This document shows, piece after piece, positions 4,957-63,349 of a stretch of DNA of 64,000 nt. Where the stretch lies: the NCBI RefSeq assembly GCF_018127745.1, contig NZ_CP072333.1, positions 310,001 through 374,000 on the forward strand, read 5' to 3'. Made by a program: the position numbers and the translations under genes. Within the stretch, counting starts at the first letter, position 1. Each line of letters starts with the position of its first letter. The notes beneath the pieces were generated by a model. It did no database searches, had not been told where the DNA came from, and worked only from the letters and a program-made list of their open reading frames with translations. The DNA comes from Porphyromonas sp. oral taxon 275 (GTDB taxonomy: Bacteria > Bacteroidota > Bacteroidia > Bacteroidales > Porphyromonadaceae).

Positions 4957-5060
4957 CGAGGGGTATCAGTCAGCGCGCTGAGGTACGTCAGTCAGAGGGC
5001 TGAGCGATAGCAGTCAGCTCCGTGAGGGATATCCCTCGCGGAGCTGGAGCAAGGCAGTCA
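4957..5060 (+). repeat. family A 22-bp-period array (five units)
   Basis: Units start at 4957, 4979, 5001, 5023 and 5045. Each is a 16-bp core (for example TGAGGTACGTCAGTCA and TGAGGGATATCCCTCG) followed by a 6-bp unconserved spacer. The fifth unit is degenerate. Core orientation is forward. It lies in the gene-free interval between the HD hydrolase and the 3' end of the DUF6122 gene, and it is the only family A array not in front of a gene reading in the same direction. Confidence 0.85.
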
Positions 5061-8430: not shown

Positions 8431-8512
8431 TTAAGGATATCCCTCAGGGTGCTGAGGGGTATCAGTGGGCGCCCTGAGGGACGTCCGTCAGGAGGCTGAG
8501 GGATATCAGTCA
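8431..8512 (+). repeat. family A 22-bp-period array (four units)
   Basis: Units start at 8431, 8453, 8475 and 8497, exactly 22 bp apart. Cores are TTAAGGATATCCCTCA, TGAGGGGTATCAGTGG, TGAGGGACGTCCGTCA and TGAGGGATATCAGTCA, with 6-bp spacers. The array reads in the valS direction and ends 128 bp before the valS -7 box. The rest of the groES-valS interval (8162-8746) holds no gene. Confidence 0.9.
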
Positions 8513-19595: not shown

Positions 19596-19677
19596 TGAGG
19601 GATATCCGTCAGTCCTTTGAGGGACGCCAGTCGCGGGCGTGGGGGATATCCATCAGTGAGCTGAGGGATATCCCTCA
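19596..19677 (+). repeat. family A 22-bp-period array (four units)
   Basis: Units start at 19596, 19618, 19640 and 19662. Cores are TGAGGGATATCCGTCA, TGAGGGACGCCAGTCG, TGGGGGATATCCATCA and TGAGGGATATCCCTCA. The array reads in the uvrA direction and ends 153 bp before the uvrA -7 box. The rest of 19511-19892 is G-rich and without genes. Confidence 0.9.
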
Positions 19678-22924: not shown

Positions 22925-23034
22925 TTCTTATAATATATTCCCCCGAATCTTATATTAGTTTTCGCTAGATCTTATATCATTTTCCGTGACTTCTTATATC
23001 ACTTTCTCCCACTTCTTATATCACTTGGCTCCCG
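22925..23034 (+). repeat. family B AT-rich 22-bp-period array (five units)
   Basis: Units start at 22925, 22947, 22969, 22991 and 23013. The core is TTCTTATATNA(C/T)TTT, followed by variable bases to make exactly 22. The array stands out as AT-rich in GC-rich DNA and lies 327 bp upstream of the frd -7 box, reading in the same direction. The remaining DNA to 23497 holds no gene. Confidence 0.88.
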
Positions 23035-23361
23035 CTCCCTAGGCTCGGAGCGCGCCGCGCCTTAGCTCGGGGCAGCCTCCCCCTTGTCCCTCGGTCGCCT
23101 CCCTCCGCACGCTTGGCAGCCTTCCTCCCTTATCCCTCGGTAGGCTCCGCGAGGCAGGTGCCCTTGCTCCGCCTTATCCTTGCTCGGCCCGCCGAGCCTC
23201 CCCGGAGCGCGCTGCTACACCTATGTAGCTAGCTATATATAGGTAGGCAGAAGGGTCCTTTTCCTTTGACTTGACTATTCTGTACCTATTTGTGGGGAGA
23301 GGTGTTGGGACGATTACGCCTTTTTTTCGCCAATAATGGTGCTTCATATACCTAATTGAGT

Positions 23362-27467: not shown

Positions 27468-28352
27468 CTAGGGGCGGGAGATGAGGAAGGCATAGGCGAG
27501 GTGCTCCGCGCCCGACTCTTCGCAGCGGATGGAGAGGAGGTAGGAGCTGCCTGCGGGGAGGCCGAGGCGGTCGAAGAAGCTCCGCGGATCGGTGCAGAGG
27601 ACCTCCAGCCAAGCATGGCTGCCGCTGCTCTCCCCTTGATGGATGCTTTGCCCCGTGAGGTCGTAGACGATCCAGCTACAGAGGGCTGTGGGGTGCTCCG
27701 CCAGCCAGCTGCGCAGAGCTCGTGGGCTACGTTCGTCCGTCTCCGAGCTACCTTCGTCCCCGCCTCCCGCGCTGGGGGGCTTGGGCTGCTGCTGACGCTG
27801 GAGGCTGACGCTATTGGGCTGCCCTGGGCTGGCATAGCCTGCAGCTGCGAGCGCGGGGAGCCACTGCGCCGACTCCCAGGGGGCGCTGAGGTCGACGCGC
27901 TCCCAGGCGACATCCTTCTTCGTCTTCAGCCCTCGCGGGAGGCTGCTGCTGTCGTAGACGAACTTATCCACCACGAGCTCCTCGCCCTCCTTGATCAGCG
28001 CTACGACGCCCCGACTATTGACGAGGCGCGGTAGGCCGAGGCGAAGGACTAGGTCTCTCGCGAGGCGGGGATAGCGCTCGGTGAGGCGCTGGGGCTCGGA
28101 GCAGAGCACGATGTAGCTGTGCGGCGGGAGCTCGACGTCGGGGAGACGGACGCCCTGGACGCGCGTTTCCTCCTTGCCGACGGCCAGCAAGTAGTCCCCG
28201 AGCGTGCAGGGCTGATCGCTCGGGTTGTAGAGCTCGACGTACTCGGCGCTCGAGGGGCTGGGTGCAGCCATCACTTCGCTGAGTAGGGGATGCGCTAGGG
28301 CGAGTTGGGGGAGGGTGAGCCCAAGGACTAGGAGGAGCTTGCGGGGGTGCAT
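27468..28352 (-). CDS. secreted lamin-tail domain protein, possible T9SS cargo
   Basis: The 294-residue protein has a signal peptide (LTLPQLALA) and then a lamin-tail domain at about residues 22-140, with LLSEVMAAPSPSSAEYVELYNPSDQPCTL. A low-complexity linker (QRQQQPKPPSAGGGDEGSSET) follows. The last 75 residues (WIVYDLTGQSIHQGE through LPAGSSYLLSIRCE to AYAFLISRP) resemble a divergent type IX secretion C-terminal domain, which would export the protein to the surface (inference). No enzyme domain is seen. A family A array lies 80 bp upstream, in the same orientation. Confidence 0.65.
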   Translation of the reverse strand: MHPRKLLLVLGLTLPQLALAHPLLSEVMAAPSPSSAEYVELYNPSDQPCTLGDYLLAVGKEETRVQGVRLPDVELPPHSYIVLCSEPQRLTERYPRLARDLVLRLGLPRLVNSRGVVALIKEGEELVVDKFVYDSSSLPRGLKTKKDVAWERVDLSAPWESAQWLPALAAAGYASPGQPNSVSLQRQQQPKPPSAGGGDEGSSETDERSPRALRSWLAEHPTALCSWIVYDLTGQSIHQGESSGSHAWLEVLCTDPRSFFDRLGLPAGSSYLLSIRCEESGAEHLAYAFLISRP

Positions 28353-28431: not shown

Positions 28432-28513
28432 TGAGGGATATCCCTCAGCGGATTGACTGATAGCCCTCAGGTGTGTGAGGGACGTCCCTCAGCCTCGTGA
28501 CTGATAGCCCTCG
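28432..28513 (-). repeat. family A 22-bp-period array (four units)
   Basis: Units start at 28432, 28454, 28476 and 28498, exactly 22 bp apart. Cores read TGAGGGATATCCCTCA, TGACTGATAGCCCTCA, TGAGGGACGTCCCTCA and TGACTGATAGCCCTCG. The TGACTG half is on the left, so the array is in minus orientation, matching the lamin-tail gene that starts 80 bp away. The remainder of 28353-28676 has no gene. Confidence 0.9.
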
Positions 28514-28676: not shown

Positions 28677-29624
28677 TTAGTCCTCCGTGGTCGGGTCGTC
28701 CTCGGGTGCGGCATCCTTAGGCGGGCTTGCGGCTCGGGGGTGGGCGGCGTAGAGCTTGCGCAGCTGCTCGAAGGAGGTATGCGTGTAGCGCACGGTCGTG
28801 GAGACGGAGTTGTGCCCCATCAGTTCGCGCAGCAGCATGAGGTCGCCTCCAGCGTTGAGCATGTCGGTGGCGAAGGAGTGGCGCAGGGCATGGGCTCCGC
28901 GACGGGTGAGCTTCGGCACGTCGCGTAGAGCGGCGTGCACCACGCGGTAGATAGCGCTGTCGGAGAGCGGCTTGCCTCGCGAGGAGAGGAGGAAGTGCGG
29001 GCTGTCGCCGAAGATCTGGGTACGCTCGCCTCGCCAGCGCTCGATGGCCTCCGCGAGCTGCTCGCCGAAGGGGACGATACGCTCCTTGCGCCCCTTACCC
29101 AGCACCTTGAGCTGACGCTGTCGGGTGTCGACATCGCCGTCGGCGAGCCCTGCCAGTTCGCTGCGTCGCAGCCCGCACTCGTAGAGCATCGCCAGGATCA
29201 GGCGGTCGCGTACGGCCTGCCAGTCTTCGCCGGGCTCCTGCGGCTCGTCGATGAGGCGGTTCAGTTCCTCGGTGGGGACGTAGACGGGCAGAGGCTTGTC
29301 GGCCTTCGGGGGGCGCAGCTGCTGGATGGGGCTTCGGCGGAGCAGGCCGAGCTTGATGAGGTAGCGGTAGAAGCTCTTCACCGAGGAGAGGTACTTGCCC
29401 ACGGAGGAGGCTTTGACCCCTGCATCGAGGCTGGAGGAGAGCCAGCCGCGCACCAGATCGAGGTCGCCCTCGCTCGGGGTGAAGGGCTCGGCGAGGCGCT
29501 CCTCGGCATAGCGGCGGTAGCGCTCCAGGTCACGGCTGTAGCTGGACACCGTCCTGGGGGAGGCGTCCAGCTCGTAGCGCAGGTAGTCCTCGAAGCGCTG
29601 GAAGAGGTCGGGCTCGGTACTCAT
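28677..29624 (-). CDS. xerC: Xer family tyrosine recombinase
   Basis: The 315-residue protein resembles XerC/XerD, which resolve chromosome dimers at dif. The catalytic set is complete: Arg in YECGLRRSELAGL, Lys in VLGKGRKERIVPF, HxxR in HALRHSFATDML, His in MGHNSVSTT, and Tyr in VRYTHTSFEQL. The N-terminal SAM-like domain spans about residues 1-100. The start is ATG 29624 (MSTEPDLFQRFEDYL). The open frame extends 94 codons further, antisense to pdxH DNA, and is rejected. The tail is Pro/Asp-rich. Whether it is XerC or XerD cannot be settled from one paralog. Confidence 0.85.
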   Translation of the reverse strand: MSTEPDLFQRFEDYLRYELDASPRTVSSYSRDLERYRRYAEERLAEPFTPSEGDLDLVRGWLSSSLDAGVKASSVGKYLSSVKSFYRYLIKLGLLRRSPIQQLRPPKADKPLPVYVPTEELNRLIDEPQEPGEDWQAVRDRLILAMLYECGLRRSELAGLADGDVDTRQRQLKVLGKGRKERIVPFGEQLAEAIERWRGERTQIFGDSPHFLLSSRGKPLSDSAIYRVVHAALRDVPKLTRRGAHALRHSFATDMLNAGGDLMLLRELMGHNSVSTTVRYTHTSFEQLRKLYAAHPRAASPPKDAAPEDDPTTED

Positions 29625-29707
29625 CGGAGAGGTCGGGACAAAGGGTAGGAGGGGGACGAAGGGCTGTAAGGCAGGATACCTTCGTCCTCGTCCAAGAGCT
29701 GGCGAAG

Positions 29708-30358
29708 CTAGGGGGCGACGCGGGTGAGGCTCCAGCTGCCGTCCTCCTGCAGCTCGTAGACGAAGCGGTCGTGTAGGCGGCTGTCGCGTCCCTGCCACAG
29801 CTCGATGCGGTGCGGCGTCACGGCATAGCCGCCCCAGCTGTCGGGGCGGGGCACTTCGCGGCCGACGAACTTGAGGCTCTCGGCGGCAAAGCGCATCATG
29901 ATCCACTCGCGCGAGGGGATGGGCTGGCTCTGCGGGGAGATGCGCGCGCCGATGCGGCTCTTGTAGGGGCGCATGGCGAAGTAGGCGTCACTCTCTGCGG
30001 CGGGGAGCCGCTCGATCGTGCCCTCGACGTGGATCTGACGCTCTAGCTCGTGCCAGAGGAAGGTTAGCGCTACGCGTGGGTTGGCGGCGATCTGTCGCCC
30101 CTTGCGACTCTCGTAGCCGGTGTAGAAGACGAAGCGCCCGCCGAGGACTTCCTTCAGCAGGACGGTGCGTATACTGGGCTGGCCCTCGGGGCTCGCCGTG
30201 CCCACGAGCATCGCCGTAGGCTCGTAGACGCGGCTCTCTATGGCCTCGCGGAGCCAGCGCTCGACCATGGGGAGGGGCTCGGCGGGGAGCTCGCTGCGGC
30301 TGAGGCTGCGGCTGGAGTACTCGCGTCGGATATGCTCGAGGTGAAGATCTTCATTCAT
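29708..30358 (-). CDS. pdxH: pyridoxamine 5'-phosphate oxidase
   Basis: The 216-residue FMN enzyme makes pyridoxal 5'-phosphate from PNP or PMP. Visible blocks are RTVLLKEV and GRFVFYTGYESRKGRQIAANP (FMN site) and the closing WGGYAVTPHRIELWQGRDSRLHDRFVY with the conserved Arg and His. The start at 30358 (MNEDLHLEHIRREY) is preferred; an 11-codon extension upstream adds only a Pro/Arg-rich stretch. It lies between the Xer gene and a terminator. Confidence 0.95.
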   Translation of the reverse strand: MNEDLHLEHIRREYSSRSLSRSELPAEPLPMVERWLREAIESRVYEPTAMLVGTASPEGQPSIRTVLLKEVLGGRFVFYTGYESRKGRQIAANPRVALTFLWHELERQIHVEGTIERLPAAESDAYFAMRPYKSRIGARISPQSQPIPSREWIMMRFAAESLKFVGREVPRPDSWGGYAVTPHRIELWQGRDSRLHDRFVYELQEDGSWSLTRVAP

Positions 30359-38097: not shown

Positions 38098-38342
38098 TCC
38101 GAGCAGCTATGCACGCCGCGCCTTCGGAGGCTATTCTCGTGCTCTGCCCTCGCCCGCACCGAGCTGAGGGATTAGCTGCTCTGCTGCTCCGCCTGGGCTC
38201 GCAGCCGCATGCGAGCTAAGGGGCAACAAGATTTCTTATATAATATCCCGAAGAATCTTATATAATATTCCGACAAATGTTATATAACTTCTGCTCCGAT
38301 ATTATATAATATTCCTCGAGATATTCTATTACTTTTCTCCCT
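38098..38342 (+). repeat. duplicated intergenic block with family B array, copy 1
   Basis: This segment recurs almost unchanged at 41536-41771. It ends with five AT-rich 22-bp units starting at 38233, 38255, 38277, 38299 and 38321 (for example ATCTTATATAATATTCC). The array lies 219 bp before the lipoprotein -7 box and reads the same way. The remainder of 37976-38701 holds no gene. Confidence 0.9.
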
Positions 38343-38561
38343 TCCACCTAGCTGTCAGTTCCGCCTTACGCGTGTCGGGCCTCCTTCCCGCATAGCAGGG
38401 GCTAGGCTGAGCCGAGAGGCTAAGGACTACTGCTTGTTCTTTGGGAGGGTTGTCCACAGTAGCCTCGGGCTGCAGCCCCGAATGAGCCTAGGGTGGAGGC
38501 TGCTTTGTGTGGTGCAAAAGTTTGATGCGCGAAAGATGCTGCTTGTTAAAAATATTTATTG

Positions 38562-38569
38562 TAACTTCG
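38562..38569 (+). promoter_or_regulatory. candidate promoter of lipoprotein copy 1 (TAACTTCG)
   Basis: TAACTTCG differs from TAnnTTTG by one base. The upstream TTGTTAAAAA and the downstream CAGAGA stretch are conserved with 42012-42019 in copy 2, while much flanking DNA is not. The leader would be about 130 nt. Confidence 0.45.
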
Positions 38570-38701
38570 CGCCCCAGAGAGCGTGCTTACTAACTGACTT
38601 CATTTCTCACCGTGCTTTGCCAAGTAGCTGGCGCAAGTCGTATGGAGTCCATGGGAGCACCCTAAAAAAGAAGCTTACATTAGTCACTAAACAATCATTC
38701 A

Positions 38702-39994
38702 ATGAAAGCAACAAGACCCCTACTATTGCTTGCCCTGCTGGTGGTATTTGGATCCTGCTCCAAGGCCACTGATGAGCCTGTAGCCCCAAGCCCTAGCTCC
38801 AGCGATCAGCCGCTCAAGATCGCCCTGAGCGGTGAAATCGAGATGCCCGAGGTCGACGCTCAGACGGCGCGCGATCTGATCCTGACTGAAGGAACCAATA
38901 GCTCTGGTAAGCGCATCATTACTCCTTACTTCACCGATAGCCGCCTTCCGGCCATCCTCTGTATCTACGATGACTTCGGGGGGATGAGCCTCTCGCGTGT
39001 CTTCATCGATGTTACCCCTGCTACGAGCAGCAATGGTAAGCTGGTGAGCCGCTTCCGCTACTATGGAGGTCTAGACCAGGGAAAGTTTAAGGTCCGCGGT
39101 GCGAACCAACAGTTCAAGTCTGGAAATAAGGTCTCCTACAAGCAAGACCCAAGTAACTCTGGGGTCTACGTAGGGCTCTTCGTAGGTCTTGACCCCAATG
39201 GTGGTGAAGATACTTCCCTTGATATCGGTGAGAGTAGCATAAGCTATACCCACGGTGGCTGGGAAACCAAGCTCGGTCAGCAGGTAGACTATACATCTAA
39301 TGGACCTAACCGCAGTGCTACCCGCATCATCTTCGGTACGACGAGCGAGCGTAAGGGTACCGAAACTGTCGAGATTGCTGGAGAAAAGGTCACCCGTGTC
39401 CTCTACGAGCATCATCCTCTGAAGTTCGTTAACGACAAGACCATCTTCGACAGGGCTCCAGATGCTCGCCATCCTAACCCTGACACCCGCGATAATGTCC
39501 TCACGGTAAATGACCTCAAGCTCACTATGCGCGGAGCCCTCCTCGAGGTCGCGGTAGAGAACTGGGGTACGGCTGACGTCAATGTCGGCGGTGTACGTGT
39601 CGGCACATTCGGTGGTGGTAAGGTTGAGTTCTCTGCCCCTACCGCGAAGAAGATCACACGTAAGAATCAGTACGGCCAGACGAATACCTTCTGGGAAGTA
39701 GATACGCCTCCTATGGTGACCCCCGCTAGCACTACGGAGAAGTACGATATCAAGTTCTACGATGCTGTCCGCCTAGAGGGTAAGGATCCCAGAAGTGAGA
39801 AGGTCGCTTCTATGAAGAAGATCGTCTACCTGCCCTTCGTCAACACCGTAACGGGTCGGGTGCAGAATCCAGGTACCCTCGAGATCTTCTATAACCAGAC
39901 TACGGGTGCTACCGAGCAGAAGACTGTAGGTACAGCTGTCCGTGGGCTGAAGAAGCAGGGGATTCTCGTCTCGAAGAAGTTCATGATTAACTAG
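38702..39994 (+). CDS. lipoprotein of unknown function, duplicate copy 1
   Basis: The 430-residue protein has a lipobox ending in VFGSC (Cys19), then a Ser/Pro linker. The body is beta-rich with several conserved tracts (FRYYGGLDQGKF, DTSLDIGESSISYTHGGWE, KKITRKNQYGQTNTFWEVDTPPM) and ends ILVSKKFMIN. I recognise no family. The overall plan (lipoprotein, beta-rich, about 430 residues) recalls Bacteroidetes fimbrillin-like or surface lipoproteins, but the fimbrillin signature is not clear. It is closely similar to copy 2 over its whole length. A 52-residue peptide gene follows 23 bp later. The DNA is less GC-rich than its neighbours. Confidence 0.75.
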   Translation: MKATRPLLLLALLVVFGSCSKATDEPVAPSPSSSDQPLKIALSGEIEMPEVDAQTARDLILTEGTNSSGKRIITPYFTDSRLPAILCIYDDFGGMSLSRVFIDVTPATSSNGKLVSRFRYYGGLDQGKFKVRGANQQFKSGNKVSYKQDPSNSGVYVGLFVGLDPNGGEDTSLDIGESSISYTHGGWETKLGQQVDYTSNGPNRSATRIIFGTTSERKGTETVEIAGEKVTRVLYEHHPLKFVNDKTIFDRAPDARHPNPDTRDNVLTVNDLKLTMRGALLEVAVENWGTADVNVGGVRVGTFGGGKVEFSAPTAKKITRKNQYGQTNTFWEVDTPPMVTPASTTEKYDIKFYDAVRLEGKDPRSEKVASMKKIVYLPFVNTVTGRVQNPGTLEIFYNQTTGATEQKTVGTAVRGLKKQGILVSKKFMIN

Positions 39995-40017
39995 TAACGA
40001 AGATACACGCAAGAGAT

Positions 40018-40176
40018 ATGAAGAAGCAAGCCTATACGCAGCCCGAGATCGAGCTCCTCAAGCTCCAGGGTGAGCCTAGTCTTCTCGTGGACTTCTCTGT
40101 CGGAGGCAGCCTTGATGACATCGAGGATGCAGGGGAATGGGATGATAACGCCTACGCTCCAGGTAAGAGCTGGTAG
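40018..40176 (+). CDS. 52-residue acidic peptide, duplicate copy 1
   Basis: The ORF begins MKKQAYTQPEIELLKLQGEP and continues LLVDFSVGGSLDDIEDAGEW to end APGKSW. It is 24 bp downstream of the lipoprotein stop and followed by a hairpin. The N-terminal plan MKKxxYxxPxIExxxLxxE resembles very short Bacteroidetes proteins often left unannotated. A GG at residues 29-30 could be a leader-peptide processing site, leaving an acidic 22-residue product (inference). Copy 2 differs at only two residues, although several synonymous third positions have changed, which supports selection on the protein. No maturation or export gene is adjacent. Confidence 0.65.
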   Translation: MKKQAYTQPEIELLKLQGEPSLLVDFSVGGSLDDIEDAGEWDDNAYAPGKSW

Positions 40177-40204
40177 TCCTCTTCACACGAAGAAAGCAAA
40201 GAGC

Positions 40205-40241
40205 GCGGGGCGCTACCTCCCATCTGGGGGTAGCGCCCCGC
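40205..40241 (+). terminator. hairpin after peptide gene copy 1
   Basis: GCGGGGCGCTACC pairs perfectly with GGTAGCGCCCCGC. No T-run follows, so it may be a stability element. It is conserved in copy 2 at 43661-43697. Confidence 0.6.
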
Positions 40242-40388
40242 CTGCATTAGGGGGCTCGCGCGAGCGCTCCTTAGATCTGTTCCCCGCTCGGGGCGCCTTC
40301 GCCCCCGCGGGCGTTGCGGGGTGCGAACTATCTAGGGGGGCAGGCTGTTCTACTCACAGCTAATTCCCTCACCTAAGACAAATAGAAT

Positions 40389-40895
40389 ATGGCAACAGTA
40401 ACGTTCAAGAATCAGCTCACCGTCACTCTCAACGGTCAGCTCCCCGCCGTGGGCAGCATCGCCCCTAACTTCGCCGCTACCAAGGCAGACCTCAGCGACG
40501 TCCACCTCGAGGACTGGCGTGGTCAGCGCGTGGTGCTCAACATCTTCCCCAGCGTCGACACGGGCGTCTGCGCTGCCACCGTACGCCGCTTCAACGCCGA
40601 GGCCGCCGCGCTGGAGAACACCGCCGTCCTCTGCCTCTCCAAGGACCTACCCTTCGCGCTCAACCGCTTCTGCGGTGCTGAAGGCCTAGACAAGGTCGTG
40701 CCCCTCTCTACCTTCCGCTGCAACTGCTTCACCGACGGCTACGGCCTGCTGCAGACGGACGGCCCGCTGCGCGGCCTGCTGGCCCGTGCTGTCGTCGTTA
40801 TCGACACCGATGGCAAGGTCCTCTACACGGAGCTCGTCCCCGAGATCACTGAGGAGCCCAACTATGAGGCTGCGCTGGCTGTGCTGAAGAAGTAA
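40389..40895 (+). CDS. tpx: thiol peroxidase
   Basis: The 168-residue periplasmic/cytoplasmic-type 2-Cys peroxiredoxin reduces peroxides using thioredoxin. The peroxidatic Cys61 is in [14 protein letters not shown] and the resolving Cys95 in [11 protein letters not shown], at the expected Tpx positions. Asp57 and Thr58 of the active site are present. The gene has its own start after a 210-bp interval and ends at a long palindromic terminator. A 5'-truncated copy lies at 43757-44191. Confidence 0.95.
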
Positions 40896-40919
40896 GCTCG
40901 CCCTCCGCGCGTTCTAATT

Positions 40920-40965
40920 AAGGCCAAGGGGCGGCACCACGATCGTGGTGCCGCCCCTTGGCCTT
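40920..40965. terminator. 46-bp perfect palindrome, bidirectional terminator, copy 1
   Basis: AAGGCCAAGGGGCGGCACCA followed by CGA is mirrored exactly by its reverse complement, with no loop, and flanked by TTTT. It terminates tpx. An identical copy at 44216-44261 ends the opposing operon. Confidence 0.88.
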
Positions 40966-41040
40966 TTGCTTACTTAATTAGGCGGGCGCCTTAGCTGGTC
41001 GTGCTAGGCGAGCGCCTTGGCTCTCGGCTGCTAGAAGAGG

Positions 41041-41100
41041 TAGTCCAGTCGGAGCGCCCGAGGACGCCGAGCTCATCGCGCTTCTGGGCGGGGATGCATA
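41041..41100 (-). pseudogene. fragment of the outer-membrane protein gene
   Basis: About 60 bp match 45706-45764, inside the 601-residue outer-membrane protein gene, with scattered substitutions. Just before it, 41020-41038 matches the 3' end of the same gene near 44320-44337. Both are leftovers of copy 1 of the tandem duplication after internal deletion. Confidence 0.75.
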
Positions 41101-41332
41101 GGTCGAGGGAGCGGGTGGGCTCGGTGAGCTTGGTGTAGAGGGCTGTGGCCTCGGAGCTGCGCTACGTCTCCTCGTCGTGGCGCGGGCCAGCAGCAGCTCA
41201 GCCTTGCCTGCGTCACGGCTCTTGGGATAGGCACGGACGTAGTTCTCTAGCGCGGCGATGGTGCCCTCCTTATCCTTCTTGTGCTCTCGAGGGAGAGGTC
41301 CTACAGGTGGGCGCCTTCCTCCTCGGAGGGGC
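41091..41332 (-). pseudogene. fragment of the 1005-residue TPR gene
   Basis: About 240 bp match 46731-46979 with many substitutions and small indels that break the frame. It lacks start and stop. It joins directly to a pyrG fragment at about 41333, which marks the original duplication junction. Confidence 0.85.
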
Positions 41333-41458
41333 TGAGCGTCCCTGGGTTGATATTGATGTAGGGGTCAAACTTCTGTATCGTGATGCTGTAGCCACGTGCC
41401 TGGAGTAGCTTGCCTAGAGAGGCGGCTATGATCCTTTTCCCCAGGGGCGAGACGCCGC
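41333..41458 (-). pseudogene. fragment of the pyrG 5' region
   Basis: About 126 bp match 37819-37944 of pyrG with a few substitutions. No intact reading frame remains. The junction with the TPR fragment lies in a short shared stretch (AGGGG-T-AGC in both parents). Confidence 0.88.
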
Positions 41459-41535
41459 CGCGGCATGAACTCCTCTTGAACTACCTCCCCAGCAGCTCGC
41501 AGCCTGACTTGCAGGAGGACGAAGGCCCCGAGCAG

Positions 41536-41771
41536 CCTTGTACGCCGCGCCTTCGGAGGCTCTTCTCGTGCTCTGCCCTCGCCCGCACCGAGCTGAGGGA
41601 TTAGCTGCTCTGCTGCTCCGCCTGGGCTCGCAGCCGCATGCGAGCTAAGGGGCAACAAGATTTCTTATATAACATCCCGAAGAATCTTATATAATATTCC
41701 GACAAATGTTATATAACTTCTGCTCCGATATTATATAATACTCCTCGAGATATTCTATTACTTTTCTCCCT
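41536..41771 (+). repeat. duplicated intergenic block with family B array, copy 2
   Basis: It is nearly identical to 38099-38342. The AT-rich 22-bp units start at 41662, 41684, 41706, 41728 and 41750. The array lies 240 bp before the -7 box of lipoprotein copy 2. The 80 bp before this block (41459-41535) match nothing else seen here. The interval 41772-42011 carries no gene. Confidence 0.9.
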
Positions 41772-42011
41772 TCCACCTAGCTGTCAGCTCTGCCTCACGC
41801 GTGTCGCGCTGCGCTGGCATCAGCCTCGGAGCGCGGCATCAGCCTGGGGAACGCGAGCCAAGACCAGGGGCAAACGTGTAGAAAAACATAAATCGGAGCG
41901 AGCTGTGTAAAGCATTGGCAGTGTGCTCCCAGCGTGATTCTGGGGGCTTCGGACTTGCTTCGTGAAAAGTTAGGTGCAAGAAATAAAATTGTTGTTAAAA
42001 AAGATTTATCG

Positions 42012-42019
42012 TAACTTCG
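42012..42019 (+). promoter_or_regulatory. candidate promoter of lipoprotein copy 2 (TAACTTCG)
   Basis: It is the same box and the same preceding TTGTTAAAAA as in copy 1, conserved where flanking DNA has diverged. Confidence 0.45.
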
Positions 42020-42151
42020 CCATACAGAGAACGTGCTCACTAACTGATTTCGACGACTGCCTAGCCCCTTTCTCCCACTCTAGGCAGCTAGTATGGAGGA
42101 GGTGCGGGGTACGGGATCGTAAACGTACTATATACACTAAATTACTATTCA

Positions 42152-43450
42152 ATGAAAGCAACAAGACCTCTTCTATTGCTTGCCCTGCTCGCATTACTCG
42201 GGTCCTGCTCCAAGGCTACTGATGAGCCCGTAGCCCCAGGCGCAGGTACTGCCTCCAGTGATCAACCGCTCAAGATCGCCCTGAGCGGTCAGATCGAGCT
42301 GCCCGAGGTCGACGCTCAGACGGCCCGAGAATTGTTCCTAGAACAAGGTGAAACTAGCACGGGTAAGCGCATCATTACTCCCTTTTTTTACGAGGCTAAT
42401 CTCCCTGCGATCCTCTGTATCTATGATGATTTTGGGGCGATGAGCCTCTCGCGTGTCTTACTTACTGTCGTTCCTGCTACGAGCAGTAATGGTAAGATGG
42501 TGAACTACTTCCGCTACTATGGTGGGCTGGACCAGGGTAAGTTCCAGGTGCGCAGAGATAACCAAACGAGTAAGGCGGGTGCTAAGGTCTCCTACAAACA
42601 GGATCCAAATAACTCTGGGGTCTACGTAGGCCTCTTCATCGGTCTTGATCCCAATGGCGGTGAAGATACCTCCCTCGATATCGGAGAGAGTAGCATAAGC
42701 TATACCCACGGTGGCTGGGAAACCAGGCTGAATCATATGATAGACTACGTCTCTAAAGGCCCTAATCGCGAAGCCACCCGTATTATCTTCGGTACGACGA
42801 GTGAGCGTACGGGTACGGAGACTGTCGAGATTGCTGGAGACAAGGTAACCCGTGTCCTCTACGAGCATCATCCTCTAAAGTTTGCTAACGACAAGACCGT
42901 CTTCGACAGGGCTCCTGATGCTCGTCACCCCAACCCTAAGACCTATGACAATGTCCTCACGGGGAATGACCTCAAGCTCGCTATGCGTGGAGCCCTCGTC
43001 GAGGTTACGATAGAGAACCAGAGTACGGCTGATGTCAATGTTGGCGGGGTCCGTGTCGGGGATTTCGGTGGTCGACAGGTTGAATTCTCTGCTCCTACAT
43101 CGAAGAAGATCACACGTAAGAATCAGTACGGCCAGACGAATACCTTCTGGGAAGTAGATACGCCTCCTATGGTGACTCCTGCCAATACCACGGAGAAGTA
43201 CGATATCAAGTTCTACGATGCTGTCCGCTTGCCTCAGAAGGATACCAAGGATGGTCCGATCGCCTCTGTGAAGAAGATCGTCTATCTGCCCTTCGTCAAT
43301 ACTGTCACGGGACTGAAACAGACCCCAGGTACCCTTGAGGTCTTCTACAACCAGACTACAGGAGCTACCGAACAGAAGACCGTAGGCGGTGCTGTCCGTC
43401 CACTGAAGAAGCAGGGGATACTTGTCTCGAAGAAGTTCACCATCAACTAG
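42152..43450 (+). CDS. lipoprotein of unknown function, duplicate copy 2
   Basis: The 432-residue protein has a lipobox ending in LLGSC. It is a full-length paralog of the lipoprotein at 38702-39994. The central and C-terminal tracts are almost identical, and differences cluster near residues 50-75, 110-170 and 215-230, which could be surface-variable parts. Both copies keep intact frames and conserved promoters, so both are likely expressed. It is followed by its own 52-residue peptide gene 23 bp later. Confidence 0.75.
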   Translation: MKATRPLLLLALLALLGSCSKATDEPVAPGAGTASSDQPLKIALSGQIELPEVDAQTARELFLEQGETSTGKRIITPFFYEANLPAILCIYDDFGAMSLSRVLLTVVPATSSNGKMVNYFRYYGGLDQGKFQVRRDNQTSKAGAKVSYKQDPNNSGVYVGLFIGLDPNGGEDTSLDIGESSISYTHGGWETRLNHMIDYVSKGPNREATRIIFGTTSERTGTETVEIAGDKVTRVLYEHHPLKFANDKTVFDRAPDARHPNPKTYDNVLTGNDLKLAMRGALVEVTIENQSTADVNVGGVRVGDFGGRQVEFSAPTSKKITRKNQYGQTNTFWEVDTPPMVTPANTTEKYDIKFYDAVRLPQKDTKDGPIASVKKIVYLPFVNTVTGLKQTPGTLEVFYNQTTGATEQKTVGGAVRPLKKQGILVSKKFTIN

Positions 43451-55398: not shown

Positions 55399-55481
55399 TG
55401 AGGGATATCCCTGAGCCCTGCTCACTGGTATCCCTCAGCACTCTGACGGACGCCCCTCAGTGCCCTGATTGATATCCCTCA
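55399..55481 (-). repeat. family A array (four units)
   Basis: Units start at 55399, 55422, 55444 and 55466 (spacing 23, 22, 22). Cores read TGAGGGATATCCCTGA, TCACTGGTATCCCTCA, TGACGGACGCCCCTCA and TGATTGATATCCCTCA. Orientation is minus, matching the TPR operon, and the array is 179 bp upstream of its -7 box. The rest of 55093-55768 holds only promoters. Confidence 0.88.
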
Positions 55482-57562: not shown

Positions 57563-57589
57563 GAGCGGAGCCTAGTGAGCGGCGTGAAG

Positions 57590-57681
57590 GAGTGTTGAGG
57601 AGCTGCCTTAATGAGTGCTGAGGCGCTGCCTTGATGAGTGCTGAGAAGCTACCTTAATAAGTACTTGGGGCGGCTGCGAAG
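57590..57681. repeat. 23-bp tandem repeat, four units
   Basis: Units start at 57590, 57613, 57636 and 57659. The consensus is GAGTGCTGAGG-GCTGCCTTAAT; the fourth is degenerate. It lies just upstream of recO. Confidence 0.75.
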
Positions 57682-57784: not shown

Positions 57785-58639
57785 TTAGTCTACCTGGACG
57801 ACGAGGATCTTCGAGTTGCTCCAGAAGGCCTCGCTATTCTTGATGTGGAGGACGAGTTGCTTGTCACTGCCGGGCAGGAGCTCGTAGGAGCTAGCGGGGT
57901 GCACGGTCAGGAGGCGGGCCTTGCGGCTGTAGAGCGGCAGCTGCGAGAGGTCGCGGCGGTCGGTCTTCGTGAAGTAGCTCATATTAGCCTGCTCGGTGGC
58001 TACGCGGCCGCCCTGTAGGATCTTCATGTCCTTGAGGTCGCCCTTGGTACCGATGCAGTAGCGTACGGTGTTGAGCTCCTTGTCCTGGCTCGCCAGAGCC
58101 GCTGCCTGCTGTGCGGTAGCTGCGTTGAGGCGATCGACGTCACTCATGCGCTGCGTGAGCATGGAGTCCAGCAGACCGATGGCGAGGTTCTTACGCTCGA
58201 GCTCCTCGGTGAGGGTCTGCACGCGCTGCTTCTGCACCTCGAGCTCCTTGCGGAGCGCCGCGATGGTGGCCTGCAGGCGACGGTTCTGTCCGCCGCTCTT
58301 CTCGAGCTTCTCGGTCAGGGCATTGATGGCGTCGTTGCTGGCGCGGAGCTTGTCGTTGATCAGGAGCATATTGTCCTTGATGCGATCGCGCTCCGAGCGG
58401 CGGATGTCGCCCTTCATGGGGTTGACGTTGATCATCCCCTCGACCGAGGAGATCTCCTGGAAGTTGGTCAGGACGCTTGCCACGAGGGAGTCAGTCTCGT
58501 GGAGCTCGGACTCGTAGTTCTGGTTGACGATGGCGAGCGAGTCGTACTGAGCCTTCAGTGTCTTATACTCACTCGAGTTCGTCGAGCAGGATGCTAGGCC
58601 CAGTGAAAGTAGGCCAGCAAAGATCAGGATCTTCTTCAT
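57785..58639 (-). CDS. coiled-coil lipoprotein
   Basis: The 284-residue protein has a lipobox ending in LASC (Cys18). Residues 25-190 are almost wholly heptad-like helix (YKTLKAQYDSLAIVNQNYES, KLEKSGGQNRRLQATIAALR, KELEVQKQRVQTLTEELERK). A small beta-rich C-terminal domain follows (VRYCIGTKGDLKDMKIL to SKILVVQVD). Similar Bacteroidetes lipoproteins have been annotated as Cbp1-like collagen-binding adhesins (from memory; uncertain). It is the last gene of a five-gene operon, 14 bp after rsmI. Confidence 0.75.
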   Translation of the reverse strand: MKKILIFAGLLSLGLASCSTNSSEYKTLKAQYDSLAIVNQNYESELHETDSLVASVLTNFQEISSVEGMINVNPMKGDIRRSERDRIKDNMLLINDKLRASNDAINALTEKLEKSGGQNRRLQATIAALRKELEVQKQRVQTLTEELERKNLAIGLLDSMLTQRMSDVDRLNAATAQQAAALASQDKELNTVRYCIGTKGDLKDMKILQGGRVATEQANMSYFTKTDRRDLSQLPLYSRKARLLTVHPASSYELLPGSDKQLVLHIKNSEAFWSNSKILVVQVD

Positions 58640-62665: not shown

Positions 62666-62989
62666 CCCAAGGCTGCCCGCCCTCGTCCTCCGCCTCACAC
62701 GCCTATAGTCTAAGGACGTCCCCTCGTGCGTGTCCTATGAAATGGCGAAGTGTGCCGCTGCGGTCTCACGACCGCTTTGAGGGTCGCCCCTGTAGGGCTC
62801 TGTCCTTTTGTCTGTAGTTTACCCAGGGTTTGGTCGCCCTTACAGGGCTGCGCACCCTGGGCTTTGAGGGGGTTGCCCCTTTAGGGGCTTTGCTCCTCCT
62901 CTTGGCGCATAGCCTCCTAAGTGTCTCCCTTCCGCTGCGTCATACCCTTAGTTCATGCTAGAGAAGTCCTCTCTTATCGCTAAGCTATG
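62666..62989 (+). repeat. large intergenic repeat, copy 1
   Basis: About 324 bp recur at 63025-63349 with only a few substitutions. The core contains nested inverted repeats: ACCCAGGGT ... ACCCTGGGC around CGCCCTTACAGGGCTGCG. No conserved reading frame is seen. Confidence 0.9.
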
Positions 62990-63024
62990 TTCTATCTAGC
63001 TCTCGAGCTTAGTCTGCATGCCAG

Positions 63025-63349
63025 CCCAAGGCTGCCCGCCCTCGTCCTCCGCCTCGCACGCCTATAGTCTAAGGACGTCCCCCTTGCGTGTGTCCTATGA
63101 AATGGCGAAGTATGCCGCTGCGGCCTCACGACCGCTTTGAGGGTCGCCCCTGTAGGGCTCTGTCCTTTTGTCTGTAGTTTACCCAGGGTTTGGTCGCCCT
63201 TACAGGGCTGCGCACCCTGGGCTTTGAGGGGGTCGCCCCTCTAGGGGCTTTGCTCCTCCGCTTGGCACATAGCCTCCTAAGTGTCTCCCTTCCGCTGCGT
63301 GATACCCTTAGTTTATGCTAGAGAAGTCCTCTCTTATCGCTAAGCTATG
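63025..63349 (+). repeat. large intergenic repeat, copy 2 (direct)
   Basis: It is a direct repeat of 62666-62989, offset about 359 bp, with the same internal hairpins. Confidence 0.9.

Follow-up and report, generated by a model that had tools for sequence, protein, structure and literature searches.

Phased four-unit palindrome arrays between the genes of Porphyromonas sp. oral taxon 275 as predicted sites of HU-HIG proteins

The 28432 array and Family A in the genome

The stretch of Porphyromonas sp. oral taxon 275 DNA analyzed here (the window: 64,000 bp, G000:C1:310001-374000, GC content 62%) comes from a genome, G000, that consists of a single contig of 2,180,921 bases. At 28432 the window carries an array of a 16-bp near-palindrome repeated with 6-bp spacers, which lies in intergenic DNA between called genes at 27468-28352(-) and 28677-29624(-). 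A gene of the phage integrase (tyrosine recombinase) family, at 28677-29906, adjoins this array. The preliminary description had listed five such arrays, named Family A, with four or five units each; all five are real, but the number of units is always four (Table 1), because the claimed fifth unit of array 1, at 5045, fails with a matrix score of -5.2 and leaves the array ending at 5038. The exact 22-bp period given for four arrays was confirmed, as was that of 22-23 bp in the fifth, where one step measures 23 bp. Sites were counted at a score of at least 12 with a site matrix trained on a genome sample, and at this threshold the window holds the 20 sites of the five arrays and a lone site at 58131 (score 12.1). 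The pattern TGAGGGATATCCCTCA, with up to three mismatches, gave 12 matches in the window against 0.33 expected from shuffles.

The same element recurs throughout the genome. The pattern TGANNGAYRYCNNTCA has 307 exact forward matches, against one for a reversed-pattern control, and the Family A pattern with up to one mismatch has 667 against 25; scaling from site counts, we estimate a total of 216-229 arrays. In a 390-kb segment, 137 sites were counted, compared with 4-8 in five second-order shuffles. Array anatomy was analyzed in a 450-kb sample (the window plus 386 kb), which contains 41 Family A arrays; four units are present in 37 of these, five in two, six in one, and three in one. The 164 sites of this sample are separated, at pair distances up to 110 bp, only by 22, 23, 44, 45, 66, or 67 bp, and the steps within arrays measure 22 bp in 119 of 126 cases and 23 bp in the other 7. 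A lack of further arrays, or random spacing or unit number, which the preliminary description feared would reduce its arrays to a local curiosity, was not seen. Regular spacing of the arrays along the chromosome was considered as well and is not claimed (coefficient of variation 0.65, where placing arrays at random over long gaps gives 0.80, standard deviation 0.13; P 0.09). Among 60 relatives, 25 of them of the same genus, the Family A pattern matches only 0-7 times each, and an exact search with two units found nothing in GTDB r220, a collection that may not include G000 itself.

Array anatomy and placement between genes

The spacers had been described as free of conservation. This holds for their middle positions, but the edges are biased, with G at position 1 in 76% and C at position 6 in 65%, which extends the palindrome to an effective length of 18 bp. 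The arrays are also oriented, showing TGAGGG on one side and usually TGACTG or TGACGG on the other. Position tests were made on the 35 of the 41 arrays that have four units and a called orientation. Read in array orientation, their consensus is TGAGGGATATCaGTCA for unit 1, TGAGGGACGtC.GTca for unit 2, a mixed centre for unit 3, and TGAGGGATATCCcTCA for unit 4; the ACG centre of unit 2 occurs in 21 of the 35 arrays and the CC of CCCTCA in unit 4 in 20. Cores at the same position of different arrays agree at 12.50 of 16 bases, compared with 11.84 (standard deviation 0.025) when unit order is permuted, and the four centre columns at 2.95 of 4 compared with 2.47, while cores within one array are less alike (11.67 of 16). 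Spacer likeness, out of 6 bases, is 2.49 within arrays, 2.60 between arrays, and 2.74 at the same position between arrays. Because core positions differ systematically and spacers hold little positional memory, the array element has a whole-element identity that is carried by the cores and not by the spacers.

These comparisons bear on two simpler explanations. An ordinary slippage minisatellite would account for the tandem period; however, the spacers of one array resemble each other no more than they do those of other arrays, cores resemble their counterparts at the same position in other arrays more than their neighbors, and the unit number is nearly fixed. We therefore rejected slippage as scarcely credible, and the fixed period, the fixed unit number, and the lack of extra spacer likeness within arrays favor the proposal of the preliminary description, which named no binder, that the units are binding sites lined up on one face of the helix. 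The second explanation has the arrays working as hairpins, either RNA or single-stranded, such as terminators or attenuators, since a perfect unit could fold into a 6-bp stem with a 4-base loop. However, arms are fully complementary in only 17 of 167 units, fewer than the 20.6 (standard deviation 2.9) obtained with shuffled arms, complementarity of flanking spacers is at chance (2.41 versus 2.38 of 6), and the window has no Rfam match at the gathering threshold. As arms and spacers show no covariation, a reading of the arrays as duplex DNA is favored, with a half-site that tolerates TGAGGG or TGACNG.

Gene placement points the same way. With genes called by our own program, all 41 arrays lie clear of called genes, and every one is in a gap of 300 bp or more. 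Divergent gaps hold 15 arrays, against 9.9 expected from gap length, tandem gaps 24 against 26.6, and convergent gaps 2 against 4.5; the under-use of convergent gaps is weak evidence, but it runs against a terminator role, as does the lack of orientation bias: of the 24 arrays in tandem gaps, 9 point the same way as the downstream gene, 11 point the opposite way, and 4 have no called orientation. The hairpin reading was rejected on these grounds as extremely improbable, and terminators with it.

Family A is not the only periodic element of this genome. When it is masked, the noncoding DNA of the 390-kb segment still peaks at lag 22, where two more families were recognized, Family B, of AAAGTTATATAATATT type, and Family C, with AAGTGGCTAATCTT. 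Family A occupies 41 of the 80 gaps that are 300 bp or longer, other families occupy 14, and only one gap contains both (A and C) against 7.2 expected (P 2.3e-4), a lag-22 stretch at 186421 beside an A array having been excluded by hand; when it is included, other families occupy 15 gaps and both kinds 2 of 80, against 7.7 expected (P 0.0011). Family B alone occupies 13 gaps and shares none with Family A, against 6.7 expected. Because gaps with both families are rarer than expected, we conclude that a long gap tends to carry a single array from a single family.

HU-HIG genes and the predicted binder

Arrays of this kind with other palindromes recur in several genomes of the genus. In 100 kb each of four genomes of the same genus, 22/23-bp arrays were built on ACCAGTACTGGT, GACCTATATAGGTC, and AACGTATACGTT in G004, on GACCTACCGTAGGTC in G014, on GAGTTACCATAACTC in G021, and on two other types in G022. 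Eleven more genomes were sampled over 20 kb each; some of them contained such arrays as well, and G003, G007, and G009 showed none. The two-unit pattern of CAGTACTG, with up to one mismatch, has 176 matches in G004, 2 in G008, and none in the other 24 genomes or the control. At least two species, G000 and G004, whose ValS proteins are 89% identical, thus each have their own widely dispersed array family.

The genes to which arrays of this class are strongly linked belong to HU-HIG (PF18291, of the HU/IHF superfamily). A profile search gave 195 matches genus-wide, 79 of them in seven genomes, and our sample comprises 62 genes, the best-scoring listed places of those 79. An array of 21-24 bp period lies within 650 bp upstream of 42 of the 62, shuffles gave none, and the lag specificity is sharp; in four genomes, 23 of 36 HU-HIG genes but only 49 of 330 other genes have an upstream array (p 7e-10). 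Beyond the 62, no array was found at a broken HU-HIG locus (L176) or near two G000 genes resembling canonical HU (L191, L192). In both G000 and G004, HU-HIG genes stand directly downstream of large B arrays, and three array families of G000 adjoin HU-HIG genes, at 280906 (B), 562677 (C), and 1212432 (D). Family C arrays lie upstream of each of three near-identical HU-HIG genes, at G000:C1:562677, 1225201, and 2091038, as if gene and array had been copied together.

The palindrome differs between most HU-HIG paralogs (for example, AACGTATACGTT, TTAATACGTATTAA, AAAACGTCTAGACGTTTT, and ATATGTCGACAG), and it can stay with orthologs. The D core, AACGTATACGTT, is present as a two-unit pattern with up to two mismatches in 6 of 26 genomes and adjoins one orthologous HU-HIG gene in four species. 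For G013 and G023, orthology to the D gene of G000 was expected from coordinates alone, before the sequences were obtained, and was then confirmed (90-91% identity, one clade, support 0.99). No D ortholog was found among eight of the ten HU-HIG genes of G014. The tree covers 61 of the 62 sampled genes, G021_L199, with a broken frame, being absent. In other Bacteroidales, an array (score at least 28) lies within 650 bp on either side of 13 of 20 HU-HIG genes, a figure for which no background was measured and which includes one array (L279, lag 24) that resembles a coding repeat; in G066 all six HU-HIG genes have one. Of seven further loci from seven outgroup genomes, six contained an array (score at least 27) at some point of the locus, which in four of the six was on the upstream side.

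From this linkage we propose that the arrays of Family A are probably arrays of predicted HU-HIG dimer sites, bent in phase. The candidate partner is the gene G000:C1:1804413-1804748(-). Its product matches PF18291 at 54.5 bits (cutoff 26.2), as does its 97% homolog P0001 at 53.9 bits, and shows the features of the HU/IHF fold, here with a glycine-rich tail; sequence searches of the PDB gave no confident homolog. Because three other array families already adjoin HU-HIG genes, Family A and 1804413 form the remaining pair, and whether they are specifically matched, as this elimination suggests, we consider evenly balanced.

Several observations weigh against the proposal. The evidence for HU-HIG binding is indirect, and no array lies upstream of 1804413, whose link to Family A depends on elimination and on a clade with G004_L173 of support only 0.60; the dispersed G004 family does lie 340-430 bp upstream of G004_L173, but there the chance of an upstream array is already 14/107 for a gene of any kind. 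At the threshold used, 20 of the 62 HU-HIG genes lack an array, and the 62 include three near-identical copies and one identical pair. HU-HIG genes were found at only 3 of 15 fetched D-array loci (L284, L285, L290) and at none of four in G014, the other loci being dispersed arrays, the D ortholog of G021 (88%) has only a single D pair some 4.3 kb away, and HU-HIG orthologs about 90% identical can have arrays of dissimilar consensus, as in G000_L166 and G021_L204. The comparison of array positions called for earlier could be made between sister species at about 10 orthologous spots, of which about 2 were judged by eye to have an upstream array in both species, too few for a conclusion. Finally, the stretch at 186421 and nine other noncoding stretches (lags 21-25) fall outside the assigned families, and it is because of these ten leftovers and the D loci with no HU-HIG gene that we lowered our confidence both in the proposal and in the pairing with 1804413.

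The main competitor is that the arrays are bound by some other DNA-binding protein, either a regulator yet to be discovered or a recombinase, and that HU-HIG genes are merely among its targets; an Lrp/AsnC octamer and a tyrosine recombinase were considered for this role. The upstream arrays of genes in general (the 49 of 330 above) and the recombinase gene next to the 28432 array would fit such a protein. However, the core switches between HU-HIG paralogs and can stay with orthologs, and one foreign regulator could hardly read so many unrelated palindromes. We regard a different binder as unlikely.

If HU-HIG proteins are indeed the binders, one predicted dimer would cover one palindrome of 16-18 bp, and since the sites are 22 bp apart, about two turns, four dimers would sit on nearly the same face of the DNA. 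DNA is bent by dimers of HU and IHF, and the effects of bends spaced by two turns add up in phase; with HU-type bending, the four bends would therefore reinforce one another, and some 88 bp between transcription units would be folded into a compact loop or coil. Arrays beside HU-HIG genes may autoregulate those genes, and dispersed arrays may shape intergenic DNA as local chromosome architecture or insulate promoters. A bolder version, which we regard as doubtful, is a private-code chromatin of the Bacteroidales. In it, each HU-HIG paralog would read its own two-turn-phased palindrome, and four in-phase bends would produce a nucleosome-like particle with about 88 bp of wrapped DNA, about one per long intergenic region; the code would evolve with the protein and be re-created at as many as hundreds of places in a species.

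Within a genome, many HU-HIG paralogs end in the same short C-terminal sequence, specific to that genome and often preceded by a glycine-rich stretch, and some do not. The ends are NSGL in G000, HVGI/YVGI in G004, HVGA/HIGA in G014, mostly VGI/IGI in G021, and often GGL in G025. Named homologs of the G000 HU-HIG proteins are found in Porphyromonas gulae, P. crevioricanis, and uncultured Porphyromonas.

Relation to described systems and other features of the window

The HU-HIG clade of the HU/IHF superfamily is reportedly treated by Burroughs et al. (2017), and the structure of one member, BVU_2165, is available as 4fmr. The genes beside our arrays belong to this clade through PF18291, and no report of HU-HIG target sites was found in the literature searched; because that coverage is partial, the novelty of such sites is provisional. 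HU-type proteins are generally regarded as readers of DNA shape, IHF being the classic exception. The site complexes of IHF and HU (1ihf, 1p71, 2np2) share the dimeric DNA-bending fold with HU-HIG, but IHF sites are asymmetric and usually single, whereas near-palindromes in two-turn-phased arrays with paralog-specific codes are found here. parS, Noc sites, and matS likewise serve an architectural protein at many dispersed places, but as single sites or loose clusters and not as four phased palindromes.

The 22-bp repeats that the preliminary description mentions for P. gingivalis have a partial basis in print, as 22-nucleotide tandem repeats were described in strain W83, although exact locations are not given (PMC4596501). 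They share the period and probably the genus with Family A; the parts of that paper available to us mention neither the cores nor a binder. The canonical P. gingivalis HU, PG0121, has been studied on DNA architectures of an inverted repeat (PMC3969353). The nearest described element that we found is BrickBuilt, an element of P. gingivalis classed as both minisatellite and miniature inverted-repeat transposable element (MITE), which, like Family A, is tandem, intergenic, and species-restricted, and probably of the same genus. BrickBuilt has 23-nucleotide units without spacers, variable length, a leader, a tail, and IS5-like inverted ends (PMC4596501), whereas Family A has a palindrome with a largely free spacer and nearly always four units; it therefore does not share the spacer-less unit that defines BrickBuilt.

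The likeness raises the possibility that Family A is itself a nonautonomous, MITE-like mobile element, of a kind that spread in each species, its conservation reflecting copying or transposase binding and not a function for the host. A high copy number, species-restricted cores, the position-specific signature that common descent predicts, and the small comparison above, in which sister species mostly do not share array positions, all agree with this. So does a flank motif common to arrays, since the consensus of the 60-bp flanks contains, on one side only, a weak TAGGGGGAG-type motif. Periodicity beyond the four units falls from 4.5 bits in the first outward 22-bp step to 2.4 in the second and then to near sampling bias. 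Against a mobile element, the 60-bp flanks, the only ones searched for ends, revealed no leader, tail, or terminal inverted repeat, the linkage to HU-HIG genes is left unexplained, and the low likeness of same-position spacers (2.74 versus 2.60 for any between-array pair) means that the copies are old or that only the core is held. We consider such an element very unlikely to be the explanation, and it is not exclusive of HU-HIG binding. A CTCCCCCTAGGC-like motif that points outward often borders arrays of Families A and B (for example, at L042, L043, and 23024-23050 of the window).

If each HU-HIG paralog does read its own palindrome, the expanded HU-HIG sets of the Bacteroidales would offer a paired protein-site system for sequence specificity in the HU fold and a functional handle on an expanded, little-studied family; it might also explain the 22-nucleotide repeats of P. 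gingivalis, and the two-turn-phased array might represent, in bacteria, something equivalent to a wrapped unit of chromatin. An evolutionary question follows, namely how some 200 arrays acquire a new code between species as close as G000 and G004.

Table 1. Palindrome arrays of the window (positions in the window)
Feature	Position	Strand	Details
Family A array 1	4957..5038	+	Four units, at 4957, 4979, 5001, and 5023
Family A array 2	8431..8512	+	Four units; lies upstream of a valyl-type class I tRNA-synthetase gene
Family A array 3	19596..19677	+	Four units; GH92 gene on one side, UvrA-like gene on the other
Family A array 4 (the 28432 array)	28432..28513	-	Units at 28432, 28454, 28476, and 28498
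Family A array 5	55399..55481	-	Four units, one 23-bp step; between divergent genes
Family B array	22926..23035	.	AT-rich palindrome, 22-bp period; five units
Family B array	38234..38343	.	Five units
Family B array	41663..41772	.	Near-copy of the 38234 array

The window also contains Family B. The core type of the array at 22926 is that of the array upstream of the HU-HIG gene G000:C1:280906. The near-identical intergenic stretches at 38234 and 41663 precede open reading frames of similar length (38702-39994 and 42152-43450), and the region 38180-43450 is probably a local duplication. Two other tandem repeats were noted, one of 23 bp in about three copies at 57577-57662 and one of 360 bp in 1.9 copies, with 96% matches, at 62666-63349.
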